Source: Ectocarpus siliculosus (Eukaryota; Sar; Phaeophyceae; Ectocarpales; Ectocarpaceae). From it: DNA of 64,000 nt. The notes below the pieces were generated by a model. That model was not told where the DNA came from, made no database searches, and saw only the letters and a list, made by a program, of their open reading frames with translations. Below, in pieces: positions 11,448-25,113 of this stretch. The position numbers were made by a program, and so were the translations under genes. How positions within the stretch are numbered: position 1 is the first letter of the stretch; every line of letters begins with the position of its first letter. Where the stretch lies: contig FN649738.1 of NCBI GenBank assembly GCA_000310025.1, forward strand, positions 2,506,034-2,570,033. The letters are read 5' to 3'.

Positions 11448-11676
11448 TACCGTGGGTGACACAAGATACCAAACACCCTGGATCGATTTTCAAAGCTCGA
11501 CTACTTCCACAAACAAGGGGGCGCAGATCTCAATCGATTCGTTTTTGGCAAGATGTCGACAGCATGGTTCCGACTCCGCCATTTTCGGCACCGCCACTCT
11601 CTCTGTATGTGGAGCAACCGAGCTTTGACAACCGGCTCAGGGGGTGTGGTATCTTGTGTAATGTCACCTACGGTAC
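11448..11676 (-). mobile_element. MITE-like element, copy B, abutting the MRS2 stop codon
   Basis: About 225 bp with long imperfect inverted repeats. The left end reads TACCGTGGGTGACACAAGA and the right end in reverse complement TACCGTAGGTGACATTACAC; both continue to GATACCA.ACCCCCTG and end near CAAAGCTCG. Each end starts with TA, consistent with a TA target duplication. The interior (GGTGCCGAAA.TGGCGG in reverse complement) matches copy C in the opposite orientation. The right end lies one base from the stop codon of the minus-strand MRS2-like gene, so the element forms the start of its 3' untranslated region. Confidence 0.65.
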
Positions 11677-11677
11677 C

Positions 11678-11848
11678 CTAATTTCTGCCGTCACGGGAAG
11701 GGAGAATCGTGCCGGCCGCTGCTCCGCTACTACTGCCGAGGGAGCCGGCGGGGTCGGACACAAGCTTCCCGTACTCCTTGGTGTCGATGGAGCCATCGCC
11801 GGAGGTGTCGAACACCGCGAAGATGAGGTCCAGCTCTTCCTCGGAGAC
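11678..11848 (-). other. EF-hand exon at the end of the MRS2-like gene
   Basis: This terminal exon encodes SEEELDLIFAVF, the 12-residue loop DTSGDGSIDTKE, then EYGKLV and a short Ser/Ala tail. Loop positions 1, 3, 5, 9 and 12 are D, S, D, D and E with Gly at 6 and Ile at 8, so calcium binding is expected. Its frame continues directly from the exon at 12597-12737 (donor AAAGAG/GTGAGA). The acceptor (CCGTAAG) has a modest pyrimidine tract. Confidence 0.8.
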
Positions 11849-14667
11849 CTTACGGCAGTAGGCGGCGTACGGCAGTTGGACGTGTGTAGCAGAAGAAACG
11901 AAAAGGGCGGCAGTCGGCAGAGGCGGCAGCGCAAGAAGCAGCAGTACAAGCAGTCAGCAAAAGCAGTCAGCAAAGGCAGTCAGCAGTCTAGAAACAGCGA
12001 GGAAGGTAAGATTTGCGAGGAGAAGGGGGACAGGACCGAACGGAATGGGGAGAGACCAGCAAAACAATCGTTGCTTTAGATTGATAGCACACAAGCAGGT
12101 ACACCCCCAAACGGACGCCGTCTTCATTGAACAAAAAAGCAAGTAATTCCACTGAAAAAACAAAAAAAGACCTGTCGATATCTCTATCGATATACTGTTG
12201 CGGCTCGTGTGCGCAGACGCAGGTGGATGGGTGAGTGCACAGGACAGTCAAGTTTTCAGCGACGGCTTTCGTGCACGACGTCTGTCACGCACACACTTTC
12301 ACTACAGGTGGGAGGGAGGAGGAACTACGAGTGACGGCTTAATGCGAGGGCATCCTCCCGCAAGTCTTGAACATGGCACACCAAACGAGCACCGAAACAT
12401 GAACAAGGCTGCGATAAGGAGCCCCGAGGTCCAATGCTGTACACACATTATAAAAAAAAAAACACAGCGCAATATCGGTTTTTAATTTACCTCAAGCACG
12501 GACATGGCGTGCATTCCCCGCAAAAACGATTGCGTGGTCAGCTTTCGAATCACTCGAAGGTTAAGCAACAGGCGATTTCTCTACCCCCCTTCTCACCTCT
12601 TTCCCCCTAGTTCGTGCCAGCTTTCTGGCCATCGCATCTCTCTTGATGGCGCCTGCCGCGGTCTTGTGGCCGAACTCCAGCTCTGTCCTCAGCACGCTCT
12701 CGATGTCGTCCACGTGGTCGCAAATGGTGTTCAGGGCCTGAACGTGAGGTTGTTTGGCGGAGTGATGGATAGGTTGGGAAGCCGTCTACAGAATGGAACG
12801 AGCCCGCGTCCGGAAAAACAAAAAGTGATTCTTGCGGGACATGTAGTGCCAGATAGATGCCGAAGAGCCAATTGCTGATTGTACCGTAAAATGCACGTGT
12901 CGTTGGTAGTGCGATCCCGGCGCCCTTCTGCCGCCGGTGCGCCACCGCTACACGGTATTACCGTATCATAAAATAACCGCATAAATGTCAAGAGTGCACA
13001 CGCTTCTTGAGCAAAAATGGTTGTCCCTGCACTCCCACCTAGCCCACGCCCTGACTTTAATTTTCTTAGCTGGTCCCACGCAACACGAGCTGTAAAAGTC
13101 ACCGCCAACCTTGGCTCTCCTTAGTGCCCAGCAAATGCTGCTGATGCGGCAAACCAAGACACCTATGGACTAACAGTGCGCGCAAAACAACCGCCTTGAA
13201 ATCAGAGCCGTTGGGCTGGGTCACTCGAAAACGCTTGGGCGCTGAAAGCCTCCGATTGAGTGCGGAATGGAAGATTTAAGATTCCGTCAAAATCGACAAT
13301 TATCCGAGTGAGAACGTCTGCTCACCATGAGTTTGCCCTGCTGGGAGTCTCCAGCGCGCACCACCGACCTGCGGCATTCGCCCATTTCCAAGCCAATCAG
13401 GATTCGGGAGCACAGCACCATCATCAGGAGCAGGAGGACGAGGAGTGGGGGACCAGGCATCAACGGAGGATAAACGCACGCCAGTGTGAGATAGGGGGGG
13501 GGGGGGGGGGGGCGTAGTTGCTTGTGTCTTGCACTCGTTGGACTGTATTCGTTTGAGAGAATTCGTTTCTTGGCTACGCCCCTCTTTTTTGGATACAGCA
13601 CCGTTCCTACCCCTAACAAAAACACCACCGAGTCGCAGGCACTCTGAACTCGTTTCTGCCACAGCAGTCTACATAGGCAATGCTTGTTATACGTGCCGGC
13701 ATGTGAGCGTCATGTATCTGCGCATCCAAAATAAAACACAGCCTATTCGGGCAATGGGCATCATCATGTACTTAGTCTTGCGTCGCCCGCGGGAGGCTTG
13801 ACACCCACGTCCCGAAGGGAGACCTTGTGCCATGATATGAGATTCGAAGCAGCAAAGTACCAACACATGAAAGTTCGCCAGCGCGCTGACGGGAAACTTC
13901 GGCCGCCAGACTTTTCGCGTTAGATGGTCAAAGTACTACGCTAATCGTTTGTTGACCCTTGATAGGTCTTGGAGCTGCACTGTTTGCTGTGGTACGTGAT
14001 CGAGGGGTCGTGTCGGAGACATGCATCATTGCTGGATACCAGCGTACCTACCAGAAGCATCATGAGTCACGCATTTCCCTCTGTAGGCGATTGCAGCAAC
14101 ACAACAAGACGTCTCTGTCTGTGTGATGCGCATGTATGTGCTAATAATACACTTTTGTGTGGTGTGCACGTGTAGTCTAGGGATTATAGGTTGAGAGTTG
14201 AGGACGCCTTGTCCTAGATACACAGCAGTAGAAGCTTGCCTGTAGAAGTCGAGCAGGGAGACTGAGTACGTCAGAGAGACTGTCGGGATATTCTCCATGC
14301 GTAAGTACATCGGCGAGATTGTCGGAATACTTGCGGTGAAACTTTTGGGCTTGTCCGAACGGTCCGAACAGACCCCGAAAGAACAGTATAGCGAGTAGAT
14401 CTCGGGGGAACCCTGCGTTGACGGTTTGTGTGATTTTGTTTTTGGATTTCGAGATGAGACACAAGCGCGCACTCGCCCCTTGTGTTCACTCCACTTAAGC
14501 ACCATCGAAGCCTGACCCGGGAGTCAGCCAGTAATCAAACATCTTTCTTTGCTTCTTCGTTCCGAGGCACACATCTAGTTGCACCCGCGCTCGAAGTGTA
14601 ACCTCTCTCTGTGTAGGCTGCTGTACAACCACAGCCTACGAAGCGACCGCGGCACACAGCACACACC

Positions 14668-14699
<32 letters not shown>

Positions 14700-17600
14700 A
14701 GACGCTTATCGCCGACACAACTCATAACGACGGTAGCACGGAACAACCTCTCAGCACAGAACGAAGAGTGCCCTAGGGTTGCCTGTCCCTCACCTCTATG
14801 TCTAAAAGGAAAGGGTGGGTGGGTGAATGTACGCGACAGTTCGCACCAAAAACAAACACTAGCGTTTGCTCCAAGGACGTTACGCGCCCAACCGAAAGTG
14901 GTGTGTTTCGTCAGGCTGTAAAACCACACGAGTTCCACTCACCGCAGGTGCCTCATGACACCTCCCAGAGCCATTGCCGAGGCGGCCGCGCTGCCGCCGA
15001 GAAGGCAATAAAAGGCCACGTGAGACGACTCCAGCCCGTTGATCGTGTTCATCCCTGGCAGAAAGAAACACAAAATAGGATCGGGATGGACGCTGTTGAC
15101 TGGTCTTCCGAAAACAAAAAACACGTACAGGTAGAGATACAGAATTTTGTAAGGGGGAGATATTTCTAAAAAAACAAACAGACAAATAAAAGGCATGCCG
15201 ATGCTATCTTCAAGTCAAATCTAGAACGCATTGTCGTCAGGACCGGGATGGAGCCTGTCGATTTAGAACGCAGCTTCGCACCTGTGGAAACAACACCAAG
15301 CTTGTCGTGAAGTCGTCCCATTCAGAATCGTCACCCTCACAAAGGGCTACATGGCTACCTATTCCTCCATTTACGGCCTCAACTTTGTCCGTTGACGAGT
15401 TCCGATTCGGGACCACAGGCCGAGAAATTCCGTGGAGGATTTCTCTGTGACGCAAGCCAAACATTTTGTCGTCGTAGTCCGGACGACATGCGCACACGCC
15501 TCGCATGGTTTCATGAAAACTCATGCAAACCGGTCTACGCTTACTGTAGGCCGGTATCCTCTGTTGTGAGGTAACTAGGCGCGCTTGGCGGTGCCACTGT
15601 AATGGCGGCTTGTGTGCGTAGATACACTCAAATGCGATTACGTGTTTAGCCAGCTAACTCACCCGGCGGTGCCACTGTAATGGCGGCTTGTGTGCGTGGA
15701 TACGCTCAAATGCGACCATGTACTTAAGCCAGCTAGCTCACCCATGGCGCCGAAGATGCAGGCTGACGTGGCCACCCCTAGGTTGAGCATGGCCAGGCGG
15801 ACGTCCACCGCGATCATGCTGTTGAGGCTCACGTCGAGGCTGATGGCGGACAGCTCCTGGAGCGACTCCATCTCCTGCTTCATCGCGGCCACGTCGTGCC
15901 CCACCAGCACCAGCTGCCTGTGGTAGTTCTCCAGGAGCAGCTCCACCACCGAGTGGCGGTGTGCGTCCAACATCTGTCCCGCGCGTTGTTCAGATTAAGA
16001 GAAAGACGACAAAAGACCGTTGGATGAGCTGGCTGTCAAAACTATAATTCTAGAAACAATTCACTCGTGAGAAAATTGGCGTTGGTACTATTCTAGCAGC
16101 AGGCCTAAATACCGGTTGGGTGCGTCCAAACAATACCAGCCTCGACCTCATTCGTTCAAACTACGATTGGGGGTATGTCAAACGCGAACCAGAAAAAATG
16201 CAAACCTGCATTGGCTTCACTACTATCATTCCTGTCTAGCCCCAAATAAAAAAACAGAGGATACATGGAGAAAAGCTGCACAAGAGGATAAAAAAACATG
16301 GAGAAGAGGTACATGCTATCATTCGCGCTTGAAACTTCGTTCTTCCAGGTTGTCGTAGCAGAGTCTGGGAAAAAGCACCAGAAAGAGCAGAGAAAATTCA
16401 CAATTCAGCGGTCTAGGTTTGAGTGCGGTATCGGCTTGCATGCGCATATTGTTGCCGCCGAGTGGTGCCGCTGTGCGTGTTTTCTGCATCACCTCCCCGT
16501 TTCGCAGTTCCTTGGCCTCTGTCAGCAGCAGACCTAGCATGTCCTCGTCGCTCTGCATCAGCTCCTCCAGGCAAGCCCTCGTCTGCAACAATTAGCAAAA
16601 AAAAAAAAAGGGTTTTCCCATCGAGAGCTAGTCGCCGACGTTGCCAAGCATCGGGGCTGCATCCATCCATGCTTCTTGGTGGTCCCCTCCAGTGGTGATA
16701 AGTACGTCGTGTTTAAACACGTGTTTAAGTACGTGTTCAAATATGTGGTTGTTCCAACACACATGAATAGGAAAATACCCGGGGAATGTCAATGCAGCAA
16801 GATACCATCAATAGTTGAAGGTTGGCCGCAAGTGAATACGGCTGGTGTGGGTAGCCTTTTCATTTTCGAGTCGTGCGTACCCCTTGCTGCCTGAGGTCTC
16901 GTGCGAATTTAGGCTGTCATCAAAGGGGCCTGTTAACTCCATTGGCCACGGCTCTGCAAAATTGAGCTCATGTGTACTGAGGACGGAAATCAGGTAAGAC
17001 ACTGGAATAACAATAACAACAACAACAACAACAACAACAACAGCAACGACAACGACAGATTGCGCTCACCTGGGAGAGCTTCAGCTCCAGCTGCTTGAGC
17101 GCCAGCTTAAGCGGCACGAGCCGGTAGTGCTCTATTCTACTCGGCGCGAAGAACGACGTAGTCTCGCTTGGCTTGAGCCCCTGCTCCATGAGCCTCCTCA
17201 CGACGTGCGCTCGTCGGTGGTAGCTAGTGCACACCTAAATGTGTCGTTGGGTTAGGTTACGGTCACGTACGTGGCAGGCCTTTCTCAGAAAAAAACAAAG
17301 GTGTCTCTCGTCTATCTACACATATCGTTCCTGAACAAACGGTACATGCTACACCCCGTTCCGTTAGGACAAAGCACACCCAGTCTAGCAAGAAAGACAA
17401 TATCTCGCGCTCTCGGGCTCGTTGAGGGTGTGCGGCCCTTCCCCACCCGCCAATCTCAAGGACTACCCGACAGCAACCTTCCCGTGTGCATCCCAATCCT
17501 GCTGATCACCCAAGCTGCTACAAACGTGATGCTGCTCCTATCGCTCTCCATGTTAGTGGTTGAAAATTGCTGCCGTTTCCCGATGAGACCGTCTCACTCA

Positions 17601-18519
17601 CCTCTTGTAGCATAACCTCGAGCATCGCCAGCTCGAACGGCATCGGCAGCTGCTCCCTAAGCATGACCTTCATCTGGTGGTGTTCTTCCTCCTCCTCCTC
17701 CTCCTCCTCCTTCCCTTCCTTCTGCAGCGCGGCGGCGTCTTTATCTCGGTTCTTCCCCCACAGCTCTTTGCTCGACGCCACCCCCGCTCCGAACCGAAAC
17801 GCCTCCTGAACGTAGTCCCCGACCTTGGCCGCGAGCTTGTCGGCAGCGGACTCGCCCCCCTCTTCTCTTGTTCTCGCTGTGGCCGTCGATGGCCGAGGAG
17901 CTCCTGCCGACGGCCGGAGCCCCGACCTCGGCTCAGGCGAGCCTGGATCGTTCCCCTCGCCCCCGGCTGCTGCTGCTGCTGGTCTCCTGCTGCCGACGGC
18001 CGCAGCAGCAGCAGCGCCGTCTTCTTCGCCCCTCACGTTCGGGCCGTCGCCACCAAGAGCCGCTTTGCTGCCGTCTCCATTTTCCCCGTCACCGGCTGCT
18101 GCTGCCGATGACGGTGGCCATGGTGGTGTTGACTTCGCGGGATCCCAAACGCCTTCCGACGGCGGAACCTGCATCGATGGCAACCGATTGCTGTGTTAGT
18201 GAAGCACGGTCCGCCAAGAGCGAGCGCGCAAACCCAATTACTAGTAAAAACATTCCGCACAACCTGTGTCGGGAGCTCGCGCTTGCACTGTTCGTCGCGG
18301 GGGTGAGTGTTGATTCACGCAGACTTGCCTCCGAACATAGATAGCTACCCTGCCTAGCCACTCGCACCGGGAAGAACACTCAAGAGCCACAGTCGTCTCC
18401 ACAAGCCAATCGCAAGCGCGCCGGTGTGTGGAGAAAACGATGTTGATGTTGTGGATGGCAAAGACGACGGCATCAGCAACAACAATCACACATCGCAACC
18501 GACAACACCAACAACAACA

Positions 18520-18554
<35 letters not shown>

Positions 18555-19937
18555 AAACAACAACAGTCGCAGATCACAACAACAATCGCAGATCACAAAC
18601 CACCACAACAACAGTCGCAGATCACAAACCACCACAACAACAGCAACGACAAAGAACAACAGCCGCAGATCACTAGCCACAAAACAGCGGCATCATCGCT
18701 CCCGCCGCCAACACCACGCTACGCCGATGCTGCTCTCGCCTCGTTGTTCGCCCGGACCAGGTCCGCGAGGATGGGCGCGATGTACGACACGTCTATCTTC
18801 TCCGCCTCGAACAGCACGCACGCCTCCGTGTGCACCAGCGCCTTGAAGGGGCCCAGCGCTATCACCACCACCCCTTCGCGAGGTAGCACCGCCGGCGGCG
18901 GGTGATACCTCTCGTCCTGCGGACGGGTGGGCGGGCCAAATGGTGAGAGCGGAGAAATCGCAGAGAAAAAAAAAACGGGCGGAGGGGGGCAAGAAGGAAA
19001 CACGATCAAATGGAATTGGCCGGTCGGTCGGGTGGTCGGTCGGTCGGGTTGGGGTTGGGTTGTGTTTGGGATTTGGCTGGGTTGGGTACGGATCCGTACG
19101 CTCACGAAAAAAGACGGAGTGAGACTCAACAAAGAGTTTAGATAGAGCGAGAGTGAGTGTGAGACTCAGAAACGGTTATAGATACGACGAGAGCGCGGGC
19201 TGATCGTAAAATGGTGCTCCTAACGAGAAAACACCCGGAACTTGAGTTTCGAACATTTTTTAGTCGGCTGATTTCGGTCTGCGTCGCATAAACCGCTCTC
19301 AACCAATGTTTAGGGGCTGGGGGGCGTTCACCAGTGCTTGCAGATGGGTAAGCAGAACTCAGCAAATCGCAGAAAACACGCGCCCTTCGAATGCGTAAAC
19401 CCCCTCCAGCCTCCCAAAACCCTCCTCCTCCTCCTCCTCCTCCTCCCCCTCCTCCTGCTAGTCTTTCTCCCCCTCCTCCTGCTCCTCCTCCTCCTCCTCC
19501 TTACCTGCAGCCCAAGAGACAGCACGTCGCGGGCGTGGACGCCGAAGTTACGAAGCACGTCCGCCAAGGTGATGCTCGTGCGCTTCAGACCGCCGGCCTT
19601 GCTCACCTCGAAAACCTCGAACTTTGAAGTATACCAACGTTTTGATTTTTCGTCGACGGAAAGAAAAACGATGCAGAACACGACAAAAAACAGCAGCAAT
19701 AGCGGCACCAATGTCCACGACAACACCGGCAACATCAGACAAGGGCAGTGGCCGTGATCAGTTCCAGGGGACTCAGAACGATTGGTACGTACAGTCGTCG
19801 TGCCGCGAGACCGAATCAAATTCAGTAGTATCTCCAGACGCTTTCATGTCTTCAATTTATTTCCCGTCAGATACGGTGCTCGTGCACTTCCTATGAAAGG
19901 CCGGGCCGCCGAAGTCGGCGGCGGTCGCCTGCCACAT
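11678..19937 (-). CDS. MRS2: MRS2/CorA-type magnesium channel with C-terminal EF-hand
   Basis: Exons on the minus strand: 19937-19875 (tentative start), 19621-19505, 18916-18723, 18190-17602, 17234-17070, 16582-16493, 15973-15742, 15054-14943, optional 14620-14603, 13368-13326, 12737-12597 and 11848-11678. Every junction keeps codon phase, and the sum is 639 codons without the 18-nt optional exon. Family hallmarks in order: an LPRE strand (ILPRE-like, exon at 18.8 kb), MPFELAMLEVMLQE (about residues 308-321), LEELMQSDEDM, LLLENYHRQL, then TM1, the signature GMN at about 484-486 and TM2 ending in RHLR. MRS2 proteins are pentameric Mg2+ channels, usually of the inner mitochondrial membrane. An acidic, Ala-rich insert with a Glu run lies in the 17.6-18.2 kb exon. 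After TM2 about 117 residues follow, including a canonical EF-hand loop (DTSGDGSIDTKE). The first exon is the least certain part. Confidence 0.85.
14943..15973 (-). other. Pore exons of the MRS2-like channel: TM1, GMN, TM2
   Basis: The exon 15973-15742 ends CIFGAMG with a split glycine codon, and the exon 15054-14943 continues with MNTINGLESSH. The intron therefore interrupts the diagnostic GMN triplet inside the glycine codon. A hydrophobic segment precedes GMN, and HVAFYCLLGGSAAASAMALG follows as TM2, then basic residues. GMN forms the selectivity loop in the CorA/MRS2 family. Confidence 0.9.
15587..15743 (-). repeat. 78-bp tandem duplication covering a splice donor
   Basis: Copies 15587-15664 and 15665-15743 differ at only a few bases. 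On the minus strand each begins with GGGTGAG(C/T)TAGCTGGCT, which is the donor of the exon 15973-15742. The intron therefore carries a second potential donor 78-79 bases downstream of the real one. The insert between them is not a multiple of three in total. Confidence 0.85.
17008..17056 (+). repeat. AAC trinucleotide microsatellite
   Basis: An AAC run, partly degenerated to CAACGA, lies just downstream (minus-strand sense) of the donor at 17069 in an intron of the MRS2-like gene. Confidence 0.9.
18500..18671 (+). repeat. ACG microsatellite followed by a CAACAGTCGCAGATCACAA minisatellite
   Basis: A perfect ACG run at about 18520-18554 passes into four imperfect copies of a unit of about 20-27 bp containing GTCGCAGATCACAA. 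The block lies in the intron between the exons 18916-18723 and 18190-17602 of the MRS2-like gene. Confidence 0.9.
19421..19503 (+). repeat. CTC-rich microsatellite next to a splice donor
   Basis: An impure run of CTC/CCT triplets starts immediately after the donor of the MRS2-like exon 19621-19505. On the transcribed strand it is a GAG-rich purine tract at the very start of the intron. Confidence 0.9.
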
Positions 19938-20406: not shown

Positions 20407-20634
20407 AGTGCGTTGCGTAAGATACCACACCCCCTGGATCGATTTTCAAAGCTCCAGAAGTTATACGTACAGCTAAACAATTTCGGTGCCGAAACTGGCG
20501 GGGTTGGAAGCGTTTTGTAGAGAGCTTTCCGAGAAGGTATAACTTGGTTGTGGCATCCTATTCGTCGTGCAGTAGTAGAGCTTTGAAAATCGGTCCAGAG
20601 GGTCCAGGGGGTGTGGTATCGTGTGCAACCTGTC
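20407..20634 (+). mobile_element. MITE-like element, copy C
   Basis: About 225 bp with inverted ends. The left end reads GTAAGATACCACACCCCCTG through CGATTTTCAAAGCTC; the right end in reverse complement reads CACACGATACCACACCCCCT and then CCGATTTTCAAAGCTC, with one extra GGACCCT-like block. The interior contains GGTGCCGAAACTGGCGGGG, shared with copy B in inverted form, and ATCCTATTCGTCGTG, shared with copy A. There is no coding capacity. It lies between the divergent MRS2-like and NEK genes. Confidence 0.65.
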
Positions 20635-20660
20635 GCATATGCGGCGTAACTACTAGCTCC

Positions 20661-21377
20661 TTACCGTACAGCACCATGTGTGCACCACAGGCACAACTCT
20701 GGTTGCTGCTTTGCGGCGGCAGAAATAGAATTAACCACAACATGTGGGCGTAAAGTTCTGGCAACATCGTATATGGCGGCGGGAATACGGCTCCCGGCTT
20801 CCGCCAGCAACCATGTGTCGGTGACATGCACCCCGTGTCCGTACGTCTGCTCCAGGAAATCCCCGCAATACATTCCATTCCAGAGTGTTCCAAGAGCGTA
20901 ATAACACCAACACAACTCACACAGCAACTCTACACCGATCACCACGTAATACCCAGCCAAGGTGGGCCGTTCTCTTTCAACGAATCAGTGGGTGAGTGGG
21001 GATAATAGGATCACGGGAACACTCACGCTCCGGTCGAAGCGTGTGAACGCGCCGCTTAGCTTCCATGCTCTTGCGTTGATGTCCTTCTGAGCAGAGCTAT
21101 CTCGCACGACATGAGAGCGATGGGTGATGTCGAACCTGCTGCCCTTCTCCACGGAAGACAATGCTCGGCGGGCCACGAGATGTGTGTACAGCTTTGTCTT
21201 TGCTTGGAAGAGTCGCATGGCGTATCGTGTATCGTGTGCATGCACGTTGTATACATATTCGTCCAAGCCAACGCGGCGGTGGGCGGTGGGGCCGTCGGAG
21301 ATCTCTAATTGCGCCGCATTATTTGTAAAACTGCCAAGAAAGATCCGATCTCCAACGAAACACGGGCTGCTAAACAC
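20661..21377 (-). CDS. Possible small minus-strand gene, unsupported
   Basis: Two minus-strand frames look moderately protein-like: 21377-21028, ending FTRFDRS before a good donor GTGAGT, and about 20960-20661, with a hydrophobic start, then WNGMYCGDF and VVVNSISAAAK, and a TAA stop. No acceptor that keeps codon phase between them was found, no family was recognised, and the upstream frame overlaps the region just before the NEK start on the other strand. It may be chance open sequence. Confidence 0.13.
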
Positions 21378-21618
21378 GCGGCCCTACACCTGCCTCGACT
21401 CCCTTTGGAGCACAAAAGCATCGTGCATAAGTGGCGAGGGAAAGGCTCTTGCTGGGTCTCTCCGAGGAGCCCAGGGACATTGCGAGTTGGACATACGCCA
21501 GCGCGACGCAACAACCACGAACACGCACATCGGTGACAGGCCGGCTGAAGATCTACTGTATAGTTTGCTGACTGCCAATAATAGACGCAACAGCTTGCAC
21601 GGCTGCAGCTTAGAAGAG

Positions 21619-23664
21619 ATGGAGAAGTACGAGAGGATTAAGGTACTAGGGGTTGGGTCATTTGGAAAGGTGTATCTCATGCGGCATCGGCAGCAGCGAA
21701 GACTCGTGTGCGCGAAGATAATCAAGATCAAGAACATTCCCCGCAAGGAACGAGAAGCTTGCCGCACGGAGGTATTTTCATGTATTCAATGGTCACATCG
21801 CAGAGGTGTCGAGTGTTTCTGCTGTGTGCTGTAGCAATTTCAAACCCGTCATGTTTATAGGCAGCATCAACGTGCTCCATTGTATCCACATATCCATAGC
21901 ATCCTACGTGACGGTACCCCACGGGGTGATTGGGTCGACTTACATATAGCACATGCCTCCCCGTTCAATTCTCTCAGGTGAGAGTTTTTCATTTTGTTTT
22001 CTTCGCTTGATTGCCTGCGTCGTGGTTGTCGCCGGTCTCGAATCCACGACTTTAGTCCAACCGACTATCTGCAACATTCCGATGCCAGTTTGATGGAATT
22101 TGGCGCTGTTGTCGTTCACATATGGCAATTCGAGAGCAAAACAAGTCAATTTCTTCTCGACGATGGAGCAACCAATTGCAACCCATGTCGAAACTCAAGA
22201 TCAACACCGACAACGATGATCCGCTGACACAATGCTCGCCATTCAACGTCACTCGCTGAGTGTTTGTACATTACATTGAACAACCTTCGTGAAGCGTCCA
22301 ATTGGCCACAACAAGATGTTCTAACCCTACTACGATAATGAGTTATTCCGTCTTTTTTTGGGGCCTCCTCCTCGAGAAGCGGCTCTTGGAAGACAAATGC
22401 TCCAAATCTTACATGTGTGCACACAATCGCGAAGGTACACACACGAATGAATCACGGCGGCAAGGATCATACAGCAGGAAGAGGGCGCCCGTGTGTGTAT
22501 GCCATATTTCTGCTGACGAAGTAATCGAAATTGCAATCGGAACTGTAGCTAAAAGGGTTAAAGTTGTGGCGCATTCTGTATATAGGGTGGGTGCCCTGTG
22601 TTCTTGTTTTAAGTCTTTCTTTTCAGTTTTGGGGATGCGATACTGCTGTATGAAGCAAGCAATACGCAAAAAAAGAGATCGAACAGCTACGAAAACATAG
22701 CCTTGAGGATGAACTCAGCTCCACATCATGCGTTGTTGGTGCGGTCATACGTTCGACGTAGTACTTCACGCACGCTCAGCATGGCTGATGTTTTGTCACG
22801 GGCAGCGGATCACTACTGAGCTGTAGTAGCGCATGTACACAGTGCAACTTGGAACGAAACCGCCTGCCGCACCCGCAGGTGGATCTCATGCGGAGGCTGC
22901 ACCACCCGAACATTGTGGGGTATAAGGACTCTTTTCTCACCCCGCGAAAGGACCACCTGTGCATCGTTATGGAATACTGCGACGGGGGCGACCTCAGCAC
23001 GCAAATCAAGAACGCGCGGTGAGGTTTGAACGTGTGGTCTAGTCTTAGCCGTGGGACTGTTGTAAATCACGATCGAAGCAAGATGTATAACCTAGGCCCT
23101 CTGTTCTTTGCTTGAGGTGGTGGTTGAGAGTGTGAGGGGAGCCTTCTGGTATAAGCTTGATGCTGCATCCCTTCCCTGGGTCGCGCTCGTTTTCATTTGA
23201 AGGGGAGCACGTGCGTTGGTGGCGTTTAGTTTGTTTCGCAGCATTTGCTTACTGGTCAATACGTTGGAGCCAGAGCAAAACGACACGCCAGGACATCAAC
23301 CGTCTTGGCAAGCGCACTTTTGACTCCAATACTGATGTTTTCAAGCGTCATGCTACTGCTACGCTTGTGAAGACTACTTTGGAACAGCCAGGTGCTCAAC
23401 GGAAAGGCACGTTGGCGGGTATCATAGCAATACCACACCTTATTTCTTCCGCGCATTATCCTTGACCGTGTTTGCGTAGGAAGCGGCTCTTTCCCGAAAG
23501 CAAGATCCTTCATTGGTTCGTTCAGATCGCGCTTGGTCTGCACTACATGCACAGCCGCCTGGTCCTCCACAGAGACCTCAAGACGCAGAACATTTTCCTC
23601 CTAGGGAATGGCCGGCTGGTGCTAGGCGACCTTGGAATATCAAAGGTGTGTTGAATTACTACCG

Positions 23665-23741
<77 letters not shown>

Positions 23742-25113
23742 GCTGTTGCTGTTGTTGTTATGGTCGTGGTCAAATCGTCGTAGTCTAAAGGCTCGTGAAC
23801 CTCTACATGGTGTCCACCGTGAATACCATGCATTCGACCGAAACCAGTCCCATCACGAAGAGGCAATAAGAAACGTGCGTGATACTTCGTTATCATCTAG
23901 AAGCGCGTACATTTGTTGCCGCTCACCTCCACTCTCACTAGCATGTGGGTATGGACACGGCCCAATGGTATGGCACGCTCGGATATTGATATAGAGGGGT
24001 GGGGGGCGCGAGAATACAGAACAGTTCGGTTACATCTCAATACTCCGTGTCTAATAGCAAAAGACACACGTACCACTCGGAGCAAGAAATAAAAATCTCA
24101 ACCTCGCAGAAACTAACGAAACAGAGCAACATACGCCCGTACGCATGACAACCGTTCGGGGGTGCGGAAGGTGTTGGAGGGTACGATGGACTTTGCCAGC
24201 ACACGGATTGGAACGCCATACTACATGTCCCCTGAGCTCTTCAACAACAAGCCCTACAACCACAAGTCTGACATCTGGGCCCTCGGGTGCGTCCTGTACG
24301 AGATGTCGGCGCTCAGCCACGCCTTCGACGCAACTAGGTGAGGCATGGGAGCGACGGGGGGCAATAGACAGGCGAGGAGACTAGGACAGGAAGAGGACAG
24401 TGGTAGATGTCGCAGGTCATATTCTAGTGAAGTGGTCAGGGGTTTTTTGGTTCTTCCCGGCAATTCGATCTCATTGTGATTGGATGTTATTGGACTAGTG
24501 TGTGGCAGCTGTGCCACTAGAGAATTCAGTATCATTCTTGTTTTCTTCTTGATATCAAACGTCCTGGCTTGTTGCCACAGCGCTTGAACGGGCTGGGCAA
24601 TGTATCTTTGAGCTGTACGGCGTATCTACAACACTCGTGGGAACATCTTTCAGTGACTACAGCACATCCAACACGAGGTTGCTCTCTTTCGTATTCCCCT
24701 CACGTCTCCCCTTACTTACGGACGGGAAAATCAAATCGTGCGACAGCCTCCACGGCCTCGCCCAGCGCGTGGCAAAGGGGCGGTACCCGTCGATTCACGT
24801 CAAGTACAGCCGAAACCTGCGCGACCTGATCAGCCGGATGCTTGCCACTTCGCCCTCCCAGCGGCCAGATCTCGACCAGGTACACCAGCGTGTGTTGAAT
24901 GGGTCGGGGTTAAGGATGGTCTCAATCAGATCCCCTACGTCAGGGAAAGGATCTCTGTTCGGCACGGCTGATTATCATGGTTTGATGAATCTGTCGATTT
25001 TGGGAGGCCCAGTATCGGCCAGGTTAGAAGGGTTGTTCCTGTCGTAACCCAAGTAGGATGATCTACATCGTGTTGATACGGGCGAGGGGTGCACGGCGTA
25101 TCGACCAAAGCTT

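Follow-up and report, generated by a model that had tools for sequence, protein, structure and literature searches.

A predicted in-frame fusion of an MRS2-type magnesium channel and a C-terminal EF-hand pair in the brown alga Ectocarpus siliculosus

Known MRS2 magnesium channels place an N-terminal domain (N-domain) in the mitochondrial matrix, cross the membrane twice, and carry a basic ring beside the pore that is formed by the first transmembrane segment (TM1) and the C-terminus, as described in passages of two reports (PMC11919701; PMC10632456), and in human MRS2 the binding of matrix Mg2+ to this N-domain shuts the channel, according to passages of a third (PMC9909464). Here we describe a multi-exon MRS2-type gene of the brown alga Ectocarpus siliculosus that lies on the minus strand of a 64,000-nucleotide stretch of contig FN649738.1 (positions 2,506,034 to 2,570,033; referred to as the window), runs from at least window position 19621 down to a stop codon at 11678, and is predicted to continue in frame from the channel into a C-terminal pair of EF-hands. 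We consider it fairly likely that the locus encodes one MRS2-type Mg2+ channel subunit with a C-terminal EF-hand pair, for which we propose Ca2+ binding and a role in gating. Mitochondrial transporters with built-in EF-hands are known in the form of the ATP-Mg/Pi carriers (SCaMC), aralar, and LETM1; in SCaMC and aralar these domains sit at the N-terminus, on the intermembrane-space side. These proteins resemble the one proposed here in that a transporter carries its own Ca2+ sensor, but they have other folds.

We letter the predicted exons A to J from the 5′ end. A joined query composed of exon A, most of exon B, the end of exon C, and exons D to J matches the Pfam MRS2-like family (PF22099) with 77 bits (E value 1.7e-21, cut-off 27), and its best matches among solved structures are the Mrs2 chains 8q8p and 8q8q (E value 1.2e-16, query residues 25-320). 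Judged from these matches, the channel part is a member of the MRS2 family, and it shares with mitochondrial MRS2 proteins (PF22099; PDB 8q8p, human 8ip3) the N-domain, the long helix, TM1, the GMN motif, and the second transmembrane segment (TM2). The GMN motif follows TM1 (CIFGAMGMNTING) and spans the junction of exons F and G, and 19-residue hydropathy across exons F to J rises above 1.3 at only two places (peaks of 1.59 and 1.55), which we assign to the two transmembrane segments. The exons that carry the end of the channel and the predicted tail are as follows.

15742 to 15973, minus strand: exon F (232 nucleotides), long helix and TM1 (about 15802-15746), from homology, hydropathy, and coding score
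14943 to 15054, minus strand: exon G (112 nucleotides), rest of the GMN motif (MN at 15052-15047) and TM2 (about 15022-14966), from homology
13326 to 13368, minus strand: exon H (43 nucleotides), SVVRAGDSQQGKLM, which restores the phase, from codon usage, AG-free zone, and chaining (all 20 listed chains)
12597 to 12737, minus strand: exon I (141 nucleotides), probable degenerate first EF-hand with loop HKTAAGAIKRDA at 12668-12633, from codon usage and EF-hand_8
11678 to 11848, minus strand: exon J (171 nucleotides with the TAG stop), canonical EF-hand loop DTSGDGSIDTKE at 11809-11774, from profile, pattern, and codon usage

The coding score of exon F was equalled in none of 3000 controls, and the start of exon J at 11848 is present in 19 of the 20 listed chains. 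The boundaries and phases of exons F to J are those given by the first-pass annotation of this DNA, and they proved right: every junction from exon D to exon J has ag before the exon and gt after it, the donors of exons G, H, and I all read GTGAG, codon phases match across the junctions, and the joined frame is open throughout. Exons D to J together encode 317 residues.

The annotation had also held that proteins of this family end soon after TM2, which a paralog in the genome bears out. This second MRS2 gene lies on the minus strand of contig C8 (L019, 3301-3162 and further upstream) and has one exon above the MRS2-like cut-off (38.6 bits) and the GMN motif, and its last exon reads GVFGMN...TVVLCRRLSLL before the stop, so that this paralog, unlike the gene described here, ends about six residues past TM2. 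A run of N lies inside the paralog locus. The 8q8p chain, however, continues for 56 residues after the match ends (369 of 425, any tags included), a stretch shorter than the tail described here, where 117 residues follow ...MRHLR at the C-terminus. Given that 8q8p continues in this way, the unusual feature of the E. siliculosus protein is the EF-hand, which is not found within the matched chains of mitochondrial MRS2, and not the tail as such.

Three tests of the joins that are independent of the EF-hand (codon usage, AG-free zones, and exon chaining) address whether exons G, H, I, and J belong together. A codon-usage model was trained on 3824 codons from 48 matched E. siliculosus exons. Of the six reading frames, the claimed one scores highest in each of exon H (P 0.030), exon I (P 0.015), and exon J (P 0.014), and the summed score of the three exons is reached by 2 of 3000 random open triplets of windows; given that these null windows may include real exons, the test is conservative. 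The zones free of AG before the acceptors of exons H, I, and J span 150, 46, and 137 nucleotides, lengths reached at 4, 35, and 6 of 619 AGs, which places two of the three tail acceptors (H and J) in the top 1%; for A, B, and D to G, the other acceptors that were measured, the zones span 36-158 nucleotides. Exon chaining from the TM2 donor ranked H-I-J first in all four settings (51.6-63.6 bits), and in the first of these the 54.6 bits of H-I-J compare with a maximum of 8.4 among 100 shuffles. Chaining begun at the exon D donor ranked E-F-G-H-I-J first, and all 16 listed chains begun further upstream end in H-I-J. As a control, chaining of the C8 paralog ranked its own stop first, with 12.6 bits versus 5.0 bits for the next chain. 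Together with the matching phases, these results make an in-frame fusion of MRS2 and EF-hand well supported from DNA alone.

The exon G donor (CG followed by GTGAGT) overlaps an in-frame TGA (CGG TGA GT), so that an unused donor would lead to an immediate stop, and two alternatives arise from this arrangement. The first posits two genes: the channel would stop at the TGA after TM2 (...GGVMRHLR and stop), much as the C8 paralog ends at such a place, and exons H to J would form a separate small EF-hand gene starting at ATG 13460, with MPGPPLLVLLLLMMVLCSRILIGLEMGECR before exon H giving it a secreted or anchored-looking start. The extension from 13460 to 13371 that this arrangement needs is an open frame with a coding score of 7.8 bits (P 0.041); however, it falls within the AG-free zone before the exon H acceptor, among the longest of the 619 measured, and its leucines are how a pyrimidine tract reads. 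Moreover, the TGA sits inside a consensus donor whose next acceptor is in phase, and the letters around ATG 13460 (a T at -3, a C at +4) count as a weak start context; we regard two separate genes as improbable. The second alternative is that both ends are used, with the intron at 14942-13369 either retained, giving a short MRS2, or removed, giving a long form with the EF-hand pair, such that the sensor would be added by splicing. The stop and the donor do occupy the same bases, and because read-through of the TM2 donor meets a stop at once a short ordinary MRS2 could be made, which counts against a fusion as the product of the gene. The retained form is hypothetical, however, and a stop near a donor is frequent in introns; we give this alternative little credence as well and favor the fused channel, which would be translated from a single mRNA.

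The first-pass annotation had seen the canonical loop only, and the degenerate loop of exon I and the reach of the gene to at least 19621 are new here. Its claim of a canonical EF-hand in the last exon is borne out: in all six frames of the 64 kb window the PROSITE EF-loop pattern has a single match, DTSGDGSIDTKEY, compared with a mean of 0.03 matches in residue-shuffled frames (at least one match in 6 of 200 runs), and the EF-hand in exon J is therefore more than chance. The canonical loop has the ligands D1, S3, D5, D9, and E12 in its sequence, and a glutamate at position 12 is typical of Ca2+-binding EF-hand loops. The degenerate loop lies 25 residues ahead of the canonical one. EF-hand_8 matches exons I and J with 27.2 bits (E value 3.3e-6) as compared with 21.6 bits without exon I, a gain of 5.6, and EF-hand_7 rises from 20.1 to 26.9 bits once exon I is included, whereas two scrambles of exon I gave EF-hand_8/EF-hand_7 scores of 22.6 and 23.0, then 20.2 and 24.4 bits, and reading through the intron instead of splicing it gave 22.1 and 20.5 bits. 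Given this gain and the start of the EF-hand_8 match, which falls on the glycine of the exon I loop, the two exons probably encode an EF-hand pair whose first member is degenerate and whose second is canonical. On a home-made profile derived from 14 E. siliculosus exons that encode EF-hands, exons I and J together score 29.2 bits and exon J alone 25.4 bits, which lends moderate support to exon I as an EF-hand. Exon I alone had no match among PDB sequences at an E value of 10 or less, and the closest EF-hand elsewhere in the genome matches at 48% over 29 residues (E value 0.083).

A degenerate EF-hand followed by a canonical one is also the arrangement in MICU1, the calcium gatekeeper of the uniporter. 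An EF-hand or MICU1-type match covers residues 333-419 of the joined query, the MICU1 C-lobe (6lb7) is the best non-Mrs2 match of the whole query (1.9e-6), and of the five tail alignments shown it has the highest-scoring single stretch (25.6 bits). MICU1 differs in being a separate protein, located in the intermembrane space, and the match is confined to residues 294-375 of the 377 in 6lb7, which is less than the whole MICU domain set. Because the alignment is gapped through exon I and calmodulins and troponin C outrank MICU1 for the tail by summed score, we treat descent of the tail from MICU as a lead only.

If the protein is mitochondrial, its subunits would form a pentamer by analogy with known MRS2 proteins, and given the topology of the family (matrix N-domain, two transmembrane segments, and a basic ring from TM1 and the C-terminus, as in the passages of PMC11919701 and PMC10632456 noted above) the N-domain and the tail would both lie in the matrix with the tail near the gate. 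This agrees with the first-pass annotation, which had placed the tail on the N-domain side of the membrane. As matrix Ca2+ rises, the canonical loop would bind Ca2+, the EF-hand pair would then change shape or dock on a neighbor, and the shift would pass through TM2 and the ring of basic residues close to the pore to a gate whose state otherwise depends on Mg2+ bound between the N-domains; the coupling to the gate and its sign we infer. Direct Ca2+ control of Mg2+ entry is plausible on this model. A further alternative accepts the fusion but holds that the EF-hand pair is no Ca2+ sensor and is instead Mg2+-filled, structural, or a docking site. One of the two loops is degenerate, and Mg2+ at about 0.5-1.5 mM is enough to occupy many EF-hands at rest, a range that is also given for matrix free Mg2+ (about 0.5-1.5 mM) in part of PMC9909464. 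The glutamate at position 12 of the canonical loop, however, favors Ca2+, and we consider a non-sensor pair somewhat unlikely.

Several points weigh against a fused channel with a Ca2+ sensor. The fusion is predicted from genomic sequence only, by the codon usage, AG-free zones, and chaining that uphold the earlier claim, and the join of exons G and H is without homology support. Chaining with a generic polypyrimidine acceptor model missed H-I-J because the acceptors of exons H and J scored -1.5 and -1.9, and under the strict setting exons B and C were left out or truncated despite their MRS2 homology. The AG-zone rule was chosen after the zones had been seen, though the six other acceptors obey it. 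Chaining from 21 GTGAGT sites elsewhere gave two scores above 54.6 bits (59.7 and 56.2) and a median of 15.5, but these other loci were fetched for coding exons and hold real genes, and are thus not a clean null. Exons I and J score under all five Pfam EF-hand cut-offs (27.2/28, 26.9/30, 22.9/25.4, 21.0/25, and 20.8/25.9 bits), and shuffled versions of exon I equal the 29.2 bits on the home-made profile in 170 of 5000 cases. In collections of viruses and prokaryotes, pattern searches for relatives of the fusion gave 5 matches in viral_contigs and 48 in genome_contigs, none of which was confirmed. Lastly, passages of PMC9909464 report that the human MRS2 N-domain needs about 1 mM Ca2+ for binding, and the authors there doubt a crucial role for Ca2+; a high-affinity EF-hand would supply what that domain is without.

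We did not see a second copy of the fusion in an exon-by-exon search of the E. siliculosus genome. Of the 11 matches of the joined query at an E value of 1 or less, 9 lie in the channel gene, 1 in the C8 paralog (E value 0.077), and the last in an EF-hand-containing frame of 886 residues (E value 0.09). A genome search with PF01544 found nothing, and one with PF22099 recovered two exons of the C8 paralog and not the channel gene itself; given that exon-by-exon profile searches missed the channel gene, further paralogs may be missed. No MRS2 or CorA protein joined to an EF-hand is reported in the titles and abstract openings retrieved by literature searches of open-licence PMC papers, and the domain combination may already sit unremarked in protein databases.

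Upstream of exon F, the gene is predicted to comprise the following exons.

21027 to 21218, minus strand: tentative first exon with ATG 21218, a basic presequence-like start MRLFQAKTKLYTHLVARRALSSVEKG, phase 0, and GTGAGT directly after, by eye
19505 to 19621, minus strand: exon A, with which the matched MRS2 N-domain begins (FEVFEVSKAGG...), from codon usage (P 0.015)
18725 to 18916, minus strand: exon B, MRS2 N-domain, 3′ boundary unsettled, from codon usage (P 0.017) and homology
17602 to 18168, minus strand: exon C, ending in LPMPFELAMLEVMLQE, with a long low-complexity insert and an unsettled 5′ boundary, from homology and chaining
17070 to 17234, minus strand: exon D, helical N-domain of MRS2, from homology and codon usage
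16493 to 16582, minus strand: exon E, helical N-domain of MRS2, from homology and codon usage

The basic presequence-like start of the tentative first exon, recognized by eye, would be consistent with mitochondrial targeting, and its codon score is slightly negative (-1.9), which leaves this exon without support from codon usage. The acceptor of exon A is preceded by an AG-free zone of 148 nucleotides (as long at 5 of 619 AGs). The 3′ boundary of exon B varies, and strict chaining drops or cuts the exon. The stretch at 17602-18168, within the MRS2 N-domain region, is long, of low complexity, acidic, and alanine-rich, and exon boundaries there are unsettled. The channel gene is bounded at its 5′ end by a divergent multi-exon protein kinase gene on the plus strand (21115-24380), three frames of which match Pkinase at 29.1, 32.1, and 54.3 bits. 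The intron that follows exon F begins with a tandem duplication of about 62 nucleotides (15587-15726, 89% identical, spacing of 78 nucleotides). Within about 20 nucleotides past the channel stop codon starts an element resembling a miniature inverted-repeat transposable element (11448-11662), with inverted ends at 11459-11499 and 11619-11659 that are 83% complementary and a relative at about 20408-20650; in a genome search in which 40 of 1066 candidates were scored, about 40 near full-length places, itself included, were found among the matches listed.

In mammals, matrix Mg2+ driven by Mrs2 tunes the calcium uniporter, according to passages of a preprint (PMC10371168), and the E. siliculosus genome has a match to the uniporter MCU (E value 5.1e-24, G000, contig C17:273959-274480). 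A second, weaker MCU place lies at C17:322050. The mammalian result and the MCU match make a Ca2+-Mg2+ loop possible, although we infer both its existence and its sign: more tentatively, the channel with its covalent Ca2+ sensor could be gated by uniporter-supplied matrix Ca2+ while matrix Mg2+ tunes the uniporter, giving Ca2+-Mg2+ feedback in one organelle, beside a sensor-less MRS2 paralog. How Mg2+ entry itself is regulated is still debated, and a channel with a built-in EF-hand pair, if true, would be a natural experiment on Ca2+ gating of Mg2+ entry for which the ordinary paralog in the same genome would be a matched control.

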